A stretch of 64,000 bases of DNA, from the NCBI RefSeq assembly GCF_032464895.1, contig NZ_JAWDIC010000001.1:1240001-1304000 (forward strand), written 5' to 3'. Numbering within the stretch: the first letter of the stretch is position 1; every line of letters begins with the position of its first letter. Origin of the DNA: Phycicoccus sp. M110.8 (GTDB taxonomy: Bacteria > Actinomycetota > Actinomycetes > Actinomycetales > Dermatophilaceae). The notes beneath the pieces are model-generated. The model saw only the letters and a list, made by a program, of their open reading frames with translations, searched no databases and had not been told where the DNA came from. Below, one piece after another: positions 27,898 to 57,978 of this stretch. The translations under genes were made by a program, and so were the position numbers.

Positions 27898-30292
<2,395 letters not shown>

Positions 30293-35434: not shown

Positions 35435-35488
35435 GGCGCACAGGGTAGGGCCTGCGTGTTTCCGAGATGTGAAGGCTACGCTGACCGC

Positions 35489-35818
35489 GTGACCGAGTCG
35501 CAGCGCACGGGCGGTGAGCCCGCCCCCGACGAGGTCCTCGCGGGGGTCGCGGAGGCGGTGCCGGCACCGGAGCCGGCACCGGCACTGGAGCCGCTCGGGG
35601 CACCGGGGCTGGAGCCGCTGGCCTGGAGCTCGGCCCGGATCGTCCTGGGCGGCCTCGTGCTGTGGGCGCTGGCCCTGGTCGTCACCCTGGCCGTGCCCGC
35701 GCTGCACACCGGCGAACGCGACTGGTGGCCGTGGTGCTGCGTCGCGGGTCTCGCGCTGGGCTCGCTCGGCTACGCCTACATGCGCCGCGGCCGCGGCAAC
35801 GCCGCCGGCGCCCTCTGA
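35489..35818 (+). CDS. DUF2530 domain-containing membrane protein
   Basis: Predicted protein of 109 residues. A Pro/Glu/Ala-rich N-terminus (repeated PAPE/PALEP) is followed by two membrane helices (RIVLGGLVLWALALVVTLAVP and WPWCCVAGLALGSLGYAYM) and a short basic end, the pattern of DUF2530. In mycobacteria, from memory, the equivalent gene lies next to the DUF3027 gene; here a nuclease cassette stands between them. The role is unknown. Confidence 0.82.
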   Translation: MTESQRTGGEPAPDEVLAGVAEAVPAPEPAPALEPLGAPGLEPLAWSSARIVLGGLVLWALALVVTLAVPALHTGERDWWPWCCVAGLALGSLGYAYMRRGRGNAAGAL

Positions 35819-35857: not shown

Positions 35858-35928
35858 CGCAAAACGGCAGTTGCTCGACGTCCCGCGGGACAGCAACCCG
35901 CGGTATGCCGCGAAACCGCCGTTTTGCG
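35858..35928. repeat. 71-bp hairpin element, copy 1 (left of AbiEi-DUF559 gene)
   Basis: The ends CGCAAAACGGCAGTT and AACCGCCGTTTTGCG pair with one mismatch. Inside are two smaller hairpins, GTCCCGCGGGAC and CGCGG-TATG-CCGCG. It has the same length and the same central block (CCCGCGGGACAGCA) as the elements at 36985-37055 and 48809-48879. Confidence 0.85.
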
Positions 35929-35973
35929 AGCGGAAAGGCAGGGGCGCCGGACACCCCGGGAGACCTTGCCGGC

Positions 35974-36894
35974 TCAGACCGCGGCTCGGGCGAGGGCTGC
36001 AAGCACGTGCGCCCGCACCAGCTCGGGGCGCTTCAGGTCGTCCCACGTCAGGCGGACGACGGCGTAGCCGAGCGCGCGGAGGCGGTCCTCGCGCCGCTTC
36101 TCGGCGACCAGCGCCTCGCGGCCGTCGGCGCCGCCGTACTTGAGCGCCCCGTCGAACTCGACCACCACACGACCCGCCACCAAGAAGTCCACCCTTCCCA
36201 CCAGCGATCCCGCGCGGTCACGGACCTCGACCTGTGATCGGACCGGCACACCGAGGGCAGTGAGCAGGAGGCGGCTGATGCTCTCACCGGGAGACTCCGC
36301 TACCGGGTCGAGGTTGCTCAGCATCGTCCGCACCCGCCGTCGTCCGCGGAGCCCGGGCGTCAGCCGGTCCGCCGCCTCGGCGATGTCCTCCAGCGTGCAC
36401 AGACGCCGATGCAGGGCTGCGTCGGCGGCCACCACCGCTGGCGTCACCCCGAAGGACGCCGTGGTCACGAGGGAGTCCGGCAGGGCGTCGCACGGCAGAC
36501 CGTCCACATCGTCCGGGGCGCTCAACCCCCTCAGCGGCGCGACCCGGACACCCGACCGCGTCGTCGTCTCCTCGACGTCGCCACTCAGCACCACCACCCG
36601 CCAGTCGACGTCCCACAGGGGAAGCCGGCGCAGGGCCAGCGCGCTGTGCCGGCTCGCCGACTCGACCGAACCGCGCGACAGCACGACACCCCGGACCGTG
36701 AGCCGGTAGCGCTCGTCACGGTCGGCGGCATCCCAGAGGTCGGCCACGGCATACGCCCCTCGGCGCACGCGGACGACCTCCCCCGTCCTGACCCACCGCG
36801 ACACGTCATCGGCGCTGACCCCGAGCCGACCGATCTGGCACCACCCAGCCACGCCACCCTGGGCCGCGAACACGGCCGCCACCTGAGCATCCAT
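35974..36894 (-). CDS. AbiEi-like N-terminal domain fused to DUF559 (Vsr-like) endonuclease
   Basis: Predicted protein of 306 residues. The N-terminus (GVAGWCQIGRLGVSADDVSRWVRTGEVVRVRRGAYAV) is the winged-helix domain of AbiEi-type antitoxins. The C-terminus holds a PD-(D/E)xK-type core: GRVDFLVAGRVVVEFDGALKYGG with a Lys-rich helix (EKRREDRLRALGYAVVRLTWDDL), as in DUF559/Vsr-like nucleases. Such lone fusions are common and often multicopy in actinobacteria; their targets are unknown. No AbiEii toxin lies beside it. Homologous 71-bp hairpins flank it on both sides. ATG at 36894 is preferred to 36930. Confidence 0.85.
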   Translation of the reverse strand: MDAQVAAVFAAQGGVAGWCQIGRLGVSADDVSRWVRTGEVVRVRRGAYAVADLWDAADRDERYRLTVRGVVLSRGSVESASRHSALALRRLPLWDVDWRVVVLSGDVEETTTRSGVRVAPLRGLSAPDDVDGLPCDALPDSLVTTASFGVTPAVVAADAALHRRLCTLEDIAEAADRLTPGLRGRRRVRTMLSNLDPVAESPGESISRLLLTALGVPVRSQVEVRDRAGSLVGRVDFLVAGRVVVEFDGALKYGGADGREALVAEKRREDRLRALGYAVVRLTWDDLKRPELVRAHVLAALARAAV

Positions 36895-36984
36895 CCGGTC
36901 AGGGTCGAGGGGGCCGCTCCCGAGGCACACCCCGGCCGCCCGGGGTTGTGGACGGACGATCCGCGATCACCGCACCTGTGGACA

Positions 36985-37055
36985 CGCAAAACGGCGGTTT
37001 CTCGACGACCCGCGGGTCAGCATGCCGCGGGTCGTCGAGCAACCGCCGTTTTGCG
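36985..37055. repeat. 71-bp hairpin element, copy 2 (right of AbiEi-DUF559 gene)
   Basis: Arms of 31 bases pair at 30 positions: CGCAAAACGGCGGTT plus CTCGACGACCCGCGG on the left, their complements on the right, with a 9-base loop GTCAGCATG. The length (71) equals that of copy 1, and the outer flanks of the two copies (CTTCCC on the left of copy 1, GGAAG on the right of copy 2) mirror each other. Confidence 0.88.
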
Positions 37056-37069
37056 GGAAGCACCCGGGG

Positions 37070-37810
37070 TCAGACGAGGTCGAAGGCCTCTTCGTCGACG
37101 ATGGGCTCGGGAGCGGCCGCCAGGGACTCGGCGGGCTCGACGTCGACCTCGGAGTGGGCGCCGCAGCCGTGGTCAAGGCTCACGACGCGACCGTCGGAGG
37201 GCGACCAGGCGTTGGCGCACACGCCGAAAAAAGAGCGGAGTGCACCTGCCATCGGGAGGAAGTAGCCGCAGCTCGAGCACGGCGCCGGCGCCTTCTCGGC
37301 GACGGGCGAGTGCGGCCCGTTCTCGCCGTCGTACCAGCGCTGGGCAGCCGCCTCGCGCCCCTCGGCCGACAGCACCCGCTTGCGGCCCAGGCCGAGCTCG
37401 TACTGCGCCAGCTCGTCGACGTCCTCGTCGCCCGTCGCCTCGAAGCCGGGCTCGAGCAGCGGGTCGTCCTCCTTGTACGGCAGCACGTCGCCCGCGCCGA
37501 GGTCCCCCGGTGCCAGCCGGTCGGCATACGGGAGCCACTCGGGGGACAGCAGCGCACCGTCACCCGGCACGAGGTTGGTCTCGCACACCGTCGCGACCTT
37601 GCCGCGCGGCACGCGGGCGACGGTGATCGCCCAGCGCCAGCCCGGGTACGCCTTGGCGGTGCAGGCGAAGTAGTGGGTGGCCAGCCGCTCGTCGTCCATC
37701 TCCATGCCGAGGTGGTCGCCGACCGTGCCCGACTCGGCGATCGACTCGGCGGCCTCACGGGCCTGGTCGACGGCGGCGGCGAGCACGGCGTCCTGCTTGG
37801 GTGCCGGCAT
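37070..37810 (-). CDS. DUF3027 domain-containing protein
   Basis: Predicted protein of 246 residues. DUF3027 features: HYFACTAKAYPGWRWAITVARVPRGKVATVCETNLVPGDGAL, LLSPEWLPYADRL, the line GRKRVLSAEGREAAAQRWYDGENGP and a Cys cluster (CSSCGYFLPMAGALRSFFGVCANAWSPSDG, then HGCGAHSE) that probably binds a metal. Its function is unknown, but the gene is conserved beside cspB-like and serC genes in actinobacteria. The start overlaps the cold-shock stop by one base in ATGA form, so the two are coupled. Confidence 0.9.
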   Translation of the reverse strand: MPAPKQDAVLAAAVDQAREAAESIAESGTVGDHLGMEMDDERLATHYFACTAKAYPGWRWAITVARVPRGKVATVCETNLVPGDGALLSPEWLPYADRLAPGDLGAGDVLPYKEDDPLLEPGFEATGDEDVDELAQYELGLGRKRVLSAEGREAAAQRWYDGENGPHSPVAEKAPAPCSSCGYFLPMAGALRSFFGVCANAWSPSDGRVVSLDHGCGAHSEVDVEPAESLAAAPEPIVDEEAFDLV

Positions 37811-38205: not shown

Positions 38206-38300
38206 CGTTCGTCCCTTTACCTCGAAGTTCGCGAGCGCGCGTCACGCGCACCTGCAAGCCTAACGGCCGCGTCCAAATCCATTTGTCGTATGCCGGGTGC

Positions 38301-38420
38301 GCCCGGCGCAGGGGCCGTCGCCTGCCCGGCTCGCCCGGTGCAGGGGCTCTCGCCTGTCCGGCTCGCCCGGTGCAGGGGCCGTCGCCTGCCCGGCTCCCCC
38401 GGTGCAGGGGTCCCGCCGCC
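38301..38420. repeat. 32-bp tandem repeat, about 3.7 copies
   Basis: Units start at 38301, 38333, 38365 and 38397 with consensus GCCCGGTGCAGGGGCCGTCG followed by CCTGCCCGGCTC. Copies 1 and 3 differ at one base, copy 2 at three, and copy 4 decays after about 18 bases. It lies in the 299-base intergenic region between the cold-shock gene and a divergent MFS gene, with a GTATGCCG motif just before it (38288). Confidence 0.85.
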
Positions 38421-38504
38421 TGCGGCGGACACCCGGGCCGTGCTCACCGCAACCGGGACGAAAACCGTTTCGGCGTTGTCGGTGGGGTGCGGGAGACTCG
38501 TCCG

Positions 38505-57800: not shown

Positions 57801-57978
57801 CCGAAGTCTGGGACTTCGGCGCAACACCCCGCGCTGATCCCCGAAGTCGGGGACTTCGGGGCATTCCGACGCACCGACCACGAGGTCTGGGACTTCGGGG
57901 CATTCCGACGCCCTGATCCCCGAAGTCTGGGACTTTGGCGCAACACCCCTCGCTCATCCCCGAAGTCTGGGACTTCGG
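57801..57978. repeat. Five-unit palindrome array with a 39-40 bp period
   Basis: Units begin at 57801, 57841, 57880, 57920 and 57960 (steps 40, 39, 40, 40). The unit is CCGAAGTCTGGGACTTCGG, with variants CGGGG in the loop (unit 2), GAGGTC in the left arm (unit 3) and TTTGG at the right end (unit 4). The interleaving sequences form an A-B-B'-A' pattern: A is CGCAACACCCC-like and B is GCATTCCGACGC-like. It lies between two convergent genes and the last unit touches the stop of the Nudix gene. Unlike CRISPR, the sequence between units is itself repeated. Confidence 0.85.

Follow-up and report, generated by a model that had tools for sequence, protein, structure and literature searches.

A nuclease gene between cognate palindromes in Phycicoccus and a proposed REP-like family of such units in Actinobacteria

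The window analyzed here is a stretch of 64,000 nucleotides from Phycicoccus sp. M110.8 (contig NZ_JAWDIC010000001.1, positions 1,240,001 to 1,304,000), the 4.1-Mb source genome of which is referred to as G000. Within the window, two palindromic elements enclose a nuclease gene, and the resulting cassette lies between two host genes that Pfam identifies as DUF2530 and DUF3027, in agreement with an earlier reading made from the sequence alone:

35456..35818, + strand: DUF2530 host gene (Pfam), with coordinates from the first possible start codon, although translation may begin further inside
35858..35928, no strand: palindromic element 1, 71 bp, in the gap where DUF2530 and the nuclease gene converge, 3' of the latter
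35974..36894, - strand: nuclease gene, predicted AbiEi_4-type plus Vsr/DUF559-like PD-(D/E)xK, 306 aa from the ATG at 36894
36985..37055, no strand: palindromic element 2, 71 bp, on the 5' side of the nuclease gene, adjoining the DUF3027 stop
37070..37810, - strand: DUF3027 host gene (Pfam), start taken from the reading of the ORF

The cassette is bounded by the stop codons of DUF2530, at 35818, and of DUF3027, at 37070. The nuclease reading frame, on the minus strand, has its stop at 35974 and is open as far as a GTG at 36930, which would give an alternative protein of 318 aa; judging from the alignment, the ATG at 36894 is the likelier start. The two elements are 83% identical in register, and DNA folding gives -25.5 kcal/mol (z -4.9) for element 1 and -42.6 kcal/mol (z -11.2) for element 2, with none of 200 shuffles equally stable, which bears out the two hairpins of shared sequence that had been read at this place. 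The half-site motif of the elements occurs five times in the window, versus 0.17 expected. The sequence-only reading had also taken the outermost bases, CTTCC/GGAAG, for a terminal inverted repeat around the whole unit; they are present with an offset of one base, and the other copies read do not share them, so that this feature is abandoned here. Rfam gives no match between window positions 30000 and 45000.

The gene had originally been named AbiEi-DUF559 (Vsr-like). The first part of this name stands by Pfam, which calls AbiEi_4 (PF13338) in the window protein with an E-value of 5.7e-9 and in 39 of 53 aligned homologues, and the last part stands by the predicted fold. The middle part has no such call here: the DUF559 and MTES_1575 models each match 11 of the 53 homologues, and neither of the two matches the window protein. 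Proteins of these two Pfam groups are linked to the present family by the matches of their models, and differ from it in that the models carry no palindrome association. NCBIfam gives nothing for the window protein and one stray match among the 53 homologues.

The AlphaFold2 model of the protein has a pLDDT of 96. Compared with the PDB by Foldseek, it finds AbiEi at ranks 1 and 2 (6y8q, E 7.6e-5, TM 0.27/0.38) and, at rank 3, the catalytic domain of I-Bth0305I (3r3p, E 0.013, probability 1.00, TM 0.74 by target length, 3.2 Å), followed by R2 retrotransposon proteins, all of these within a set of weak matches in which one of 246 has E<=0.001. Among predicted viral proteins, 23 match with E<=0.001, and their names include DUF559, DNA mismatch endonuclease, and homing endonuclease. 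The nuclease is accordingly modeled, as a prediction, as an AbiEi-like part joined to a Vsr-like homing-endonuclease domain. The residues invariant in the 53 sequences include D158, E204, Q221, D236, E246, D248, K252, E265, and K266, of which D236, E246, D248, and K252 are those we take to be catalytic from what is known of PD-(D/E)xK families. Pairs among seven close homologues have a dN/dS of 0.17-0.44, with dS often above 1. In G001, G006, G007, and G010, identity to G000 is 56-63% for the nuclease versus 86-90% for DUF3027; on this comparison with a single neighbor, the nuclease appears to evolve faster than the adjoining gene.

With the Vsr-like (EDxHD) homing endonucleases such as I-Bth0305I, the cassette shares the predicted Vsr-like PD-(D/E)xK domain and a selfish-gene-like distribution, and the available text of PMC9403480 describes DUF559 as an EDxHD homing family found in inteins. 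Unlike them, the gene here is situated between host genes, with no intron or intein as far as its neighbors show, and it comes with its own dispersed palindromes and with a predicted DNA-binding half of the AbiEi type. The likeness to the AbiEi antitoxin of type IV toxin-antitoxin systems lies in the N-terminal AbiEi_4 region and in the binding of inverted repeats by its relatives: AbiEi and Rv2827c bind 23-bp inverted repeats that are 3 or 13 bp apart, according to the available text of PMC7319586. AbiE systems differ from the cassette, which holds a nuclease domain, has repeats flanking the gene and further ones genome-wide, and has no AbiEii nucleotidyltransferase toxin beside the nuclease, the immediate neighbors being DUF2530 and DUF3027 by Pfam. 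The absence of this toxin from the immediate neighbors also weighs against a defense or addiction module in which palindromic decoys would hold the nuclease harmless and DNA would be attacked once the decoys were lost. Such a module would fit the matches of the PADLOC AbiEi models to the nuclease and the chromosomal location of the gene (no nuclease match among phage records and one, weak, among plasmid records), and is considered here very improbable.

The association of gene and palindrome was followed in a sample of loci that combined 30 from a search of 58 related genomes (locus L048 being dropped at a contig end), 40 further loci that were the next best-scoring places in the same search (four that were partial or near a contig end being passed over), and the best 80 of 313 relatives from one scan of genome contigs. 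Removal of 18 duplicates from these 149 loci left 131, and removal of nine more with incomplete flanks left 122 distinct AbiEi-DUF559 loci. Hairpins were called by a criterion of our own choosing, an arm score of 14 and a span below 110 bp, in windows of 400 bp upstream and 250 bp downstream. At least one long palindrome flanks the nuclease gene in 89 of the 122 loci: 69 have one upstream, 61 have one downstream, and 41 have both. Flanking elements at the nuclease genes of relatives, which the sequence-only reading had proposed to look for, are therefore present at most of these loci; nuclease genes without elements, which it had held to count against the unit, also exist, since 33 of the 122 have a palindrome on neither side at the chosen threshold. 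The background, taken as windows of 430 bp from the same loci, is 30 palindromes in 929 windows. Earlier passes gave a palindrome at 51 of 69 loci with a 300-bp window and at 55 of 80 loci in another, where 18 of 22 two-sided pairs were alike. The association extends to five of the eight loci from Kribbella, Jiangella, Propioniciclava, and Pseudonocardiales (L182, L186, L193, L199, and L200), a palindrome not being found in the remaining three (L184, L187, and L197). The sizes go from about 30 bp up to 110 bp, the upper limit of the scan.

At the two-sided loci, the upstream and downstream palindromes belong together: the own pair has a median score of 41 versus 7 against other loci, and 37 of the 41 pairs are above the 99th percentile, with four not standing out. 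All p-values obtained from such loci overstate independence, because the loci are related.

Hairpins at gene ends could also serve a foreign gene as insulators or as terminators that work in both directions. Most of the palindromes do occupy gene ends, arms in the G000 family terminate in TTTT, and control genes from related genomes (DUF3027, ppa, and maf) have a downstream hairpin in 10 of 44 cases. However, the same control genes have an upstream palindrome in 0 of 44, while upstream copies at the nuclease genes are as frequent as downstream ones; over the 10 nt that follow the stem, 138 hairpins have a mean T fraction of 0.15, equal to the background of 0.149, with six or more T in one of the 138; and the palindrome sequences are lineage-specific. 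Terminators are thus a very weak candidate. One control hairpin, downstream of its gene in G017 (L080:2317-2412), contains copies of the type-2 palindrome described below, so that some of the control hairpins are themselves palindromes of the nuclease type.

Outside the cassette, copies of the palindrome are dispersed over the genome. Searched for in G000 with up to one mismatch, the half-site CAAAACSGCNGTTNC gives 62 matches versus one for the reversed control, and outside the genus a pattern of this type with one mismatch matches at about the level of the reversed control. In G001, at least 40 half-site matches are present, which were not used as a palindrome count. From G000, 29 distinct palindromes were extracted, a few single half-sites being excluded. 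Of these, 18 belong to subfamily A, which includes the cassette palindromes, and 11 to subfamily B (e.g., L010, L017, and L030), which has the outer arms of the cassette palindromes with another middle, and which flanks no nuclease in this genome. G000 holds one nuclease gene of the cassette type at E<=1e-3, and two of the 29 palindromes adjoin it. The sequence-only reading had held that elements scattered with no preference for nuclease genes would speak against the unit, and such scatter is what G000 displays; a REP-like system also predicts it.

Sites without the insertion, for which the sequence-only reading had suggested looking, are found in relatives. In four of the 11 genomes compared within the genus (G002, G003, G004, and G009), DUF2530 comes immediately after DUF3027 and no palindrome separates them, and the two genes are also directly adjacent at three loci from other genera (L073-L075), confirming that they are neighbors elsewhere. 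The cassette lies between them in G000, G001, G006, G007, and G010, and a different sequence, read as a regulator gene, follows DUF3027 in G005 and G008. Two of the genomes with the empty site, G002 and G003, carry the cassette elsewhere, with a nuclease that is 59% and 57% identical, respectively, between two palindromes; the neighbors at this second site read from their translations as heme-synthesis genes and a MarR-type regulator. Solo copies behave similarly. Two were tested in G000, one in the gap that separates ppa from an NlpC-type gene and the other in the gap that separates maf from an accD-type gene (gene names from reading), and for each of them the same gene pair lacks the half-site, with at least four mismatches, in six of eight congeners, the partner gene not being found alongside in the other two. 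Insertion at the sites tested is, as judged from these gene pairs, lineage-specific.

The position of the copies relative to genes was determined with a simple ORF caller at 48 copy loci of G000 and G034, of which 47 were classified: 21 lie between convergent, 18 between tandem, and one between divergent gene pairs, three were called inside ORFs that are taken for false, and four are undecided. This distribution bears on the proposal that an AbiEi-type regulator uses the palindromes as operators, with autoregulation through the upstream copy and a regulon made up of the dispersed ones. The proposal draws on the autoregulation of AbiEi and Rv2827c through the 23-bp inverted repeats in their own promoters, as the available text of PMC7319586 describes it, on the fit of the N-terminal region to AbiEi models, and on AbiEi being the top Foldseek match. 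Against it stand the single divergent pair among the 47 copies, the near equality of downstream and upstream copies at the nuclease loci, and the absence of both solo copies from the same gene pairs in most congeners. Operators are for these reasons an unlikely explanation of the palindromes as a whole, and autoregulation could be a side function.

In G034, all 21 copies caught by the pattern are exactly 70 bp long, and none of them has a target-site duplication (mean 1.10 versus 1.23 for permuted flanks). Insertion into terminator hairpins was considered and rejected: the flank pairing of 22 G034 copies is 6.2 versus 6.7 for permuted flanks, 485 of 500 permutations being equal or higher. The flanks are biased in composition, with a C-rich left side and a G-rich right side in 13 of 21 G034 copies and 20 of 29 G000 copies.

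Each lineage has palindromes of its own. The 20-mer CATGAAACCGGGTTACGTGC, with two mismatches allowed, matches 67 times in G034 and not at all in the remaining 57 genomes, and the G034 nuclease locus, L054, has this palindrome on both sides. Similarly, GCGGGTGTCGTTCGGCAA, with one mismatch, is found among the 58 genomes 11 times in G007, eight in G010, twice in G008, and once in G039; in G007 and G010, the nuclease orthologue has this palindrome immediately upstream, and G010 has in addition a half-site on the other side. The type-2 palindrome, AACCTCTGCTNGCAGAGGTT with one mismatch, is present in eight of the 58 genomes, and the type-2 nuclease is likewise present in eight, at a cut-off of E<=4.8e-80 that was set after seeing the list (the next match being at 4.2e-48). 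Both occur together in seven genomes (G003, G004, G006, G007, G010, G017, and G032) and neither occurs in 49, the exceptions being G021, with palindromes only and no nuclease at E<=1e-25, and G002, with the nuclease only (Fisher p 2e-7 over the 58 genomes). The motif is found on both sides of the type-2 gene in G003, G004, G006, G007, and G010. The type-2 nuclease of G002 is more diverged, and it is flanked by different palindromes that match each other.

Gene and palindromes diverge together. Over 93 loci (of 94, L172 being left out as frame-broken), palindrome likeness drops with protein identity, with a Mantel r of 0.43 reached in none of 999 permutations. A palindrome score of at least 16 is found in both of the two pairs of loci with proteins more than 80% identical, in 46% of 48 pairs at 60-80%, in 11% of 177 pairs at 50-60%, and in less than 1% at lower identity. 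In five cassettes, the left and right palindromes of one cassette are 81-93% identical, with a mean of 86%, versus a mean of 67% between genomes. A case within the genus illustrates how this may come about. Across 1887 nt from three genes, G006 and G007 share 93% identity, and they are grouped with 98% support in a genus tree that is otherwise poorly supported and places G010 by DUF3027 alone. Their nucleases are nevertheless 68% identical and their palindromes of different families, whereas G007 and G010 have a palindrome family in common and nucleases that are 83% identical. Joint exchange or joint change of gene and palindromes is the simplest reading.

The pairing of many palindrome families, each with its own nuclease lineage, argues against MITE-like repeats that would be moved by an unrelated transposase, with the nuclease as a passenger or inserted between two of them. 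This explanation would account for the solo copies of G000, which far exceed its single nuclease gene. However, a target-site duplication is missing from the 21 G034 copies, and a Y1 transposase (Y1_Tnp, PF01797, the family searched) was found in none of 12 genomes, a control having matched in 5 of 14. MITE-like repeats are therefore improbable, somewhat more so than operators.

REP repeats have so far been tied, to our knowledge, to one enzyme type, the HUH Y1 transposases (RAYTs). For RAYTs, the available texts of PMC2817692 and PMC8266576 describe flanking palindromes, co-evolution of gene and palindrome, fast evolution of the gene, and an abundance of palindromes that tracks the gene. The resemblance to these systems, also known as TnpA-REP or REPtron, is extensive as far as those texts go: the gene lies between two palindromes, in the window and at the two-sided loci; palindromes are dispersed outside genes with an abundance that tracks the cognate gene, G021, G002, and subfamily B of G000 being the exceptions; and gene and palindrome co-evolve, with the gene faster-evolving than its neighbor. 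The differences lie in the enzyme, which is by its predicted fold an AbiEi plus PD-(D/E)xK Vsr-like protein and not a HUH Y1 one, in the length of the palindromes, and in their ends. REP palindromes are 20-40 bp long with a GTAG/CGTC tag at one end, according to the available text of PMC3733652, whereas those described here reach the limit of the scan and the element ends of G000 and G034, read directly, have no such tag. As the enzyme is unrelated, the cassette is not a RAYT system, despite the likeness.

The best reading is that of a REP/RAYT-like unit, as yet undescribed, with a PD-(D/E)xK nuclease at its core. This is close to the mobile or homing-type unit, analogous to REP/TnpA-REP pairs, that the sequence-only reading had put forward, and the matching flanks, empty sites, cognate palindromes, and predicted fold, as well as the lack of Y1 transposases in the 12 genomes, lend it support. 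More broadly, the cassette would be one member of a large actinobacterial nuclease-palindrome family that works through palindrome binding, cutting, and copying by host repair, to which we assign a probability of about 0.62. That the dozens of pairs in Actinobacteria represent an unrecognized class of selfish nuclease-palindrome partnerships, in which an AbiEi-Vsr fusion spreads its own palindrome, is considered somewhat better than an even bet. In the literature searched, which included few subscription papers and no bioRxiv preprints, no description of a nuclease-palindrome association was found, and it may be described elsewhere.

As for the mechanism, we infer that the enzyme acts on the palindromes. 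The AbiEi half probably binds them, because its relatives bind 23-bp repeats and the palindromes consist of two arms of about 15-45 bp with a short center. The AbiEi-type winged-helix N-terminal part would bind both arms and bring the Vsr-like nuclease to the palindrome, where it would nick or cut the palindrome, perhaps as an extruded hairpin or cruciform, or a target. Host repair would then copy the palindrome into a new site at a gene end and, now and then, the whole palindrome-gene-palindrome unit.

If true, this would be a second, independently evolved answer to the question of how bacterial REP-like repeats arise and persist, with repeats of REP anatomy tied to an unrelated nuclease. The many cognate pairs would allow side-by-side tests of protein-palindrome co-evolution, and the system would lend itself to the study of repeat spread without target duplication. 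The reading also bears on the role of the widespread actinobacterial AbiEi-DUF559 genes, could explain lineage-specific intergenic palindromes, and may yield palindrome-specific nucleases.

Besides the cassette, several other repeats were observed. In G034 (C2), two near-identical palindromes 0.8 kb apart (L251:1349-1418 and L251:2146-2215) lie on either side of an ORF that could be read as a thiopurine methyltransferase, possibly another captured gene. In the window itself, a 32-bp tandem repeat in 3.8 copies lies at 38300-38423, between genes read as cold-shock-like and transporter genes, and positions 57801-57978 hold about 4.5 copies, with a period of about 40 bp, of the 19-bp palindrome CCGAAGTCNGGGACTTCGG, in a BIME-like array.
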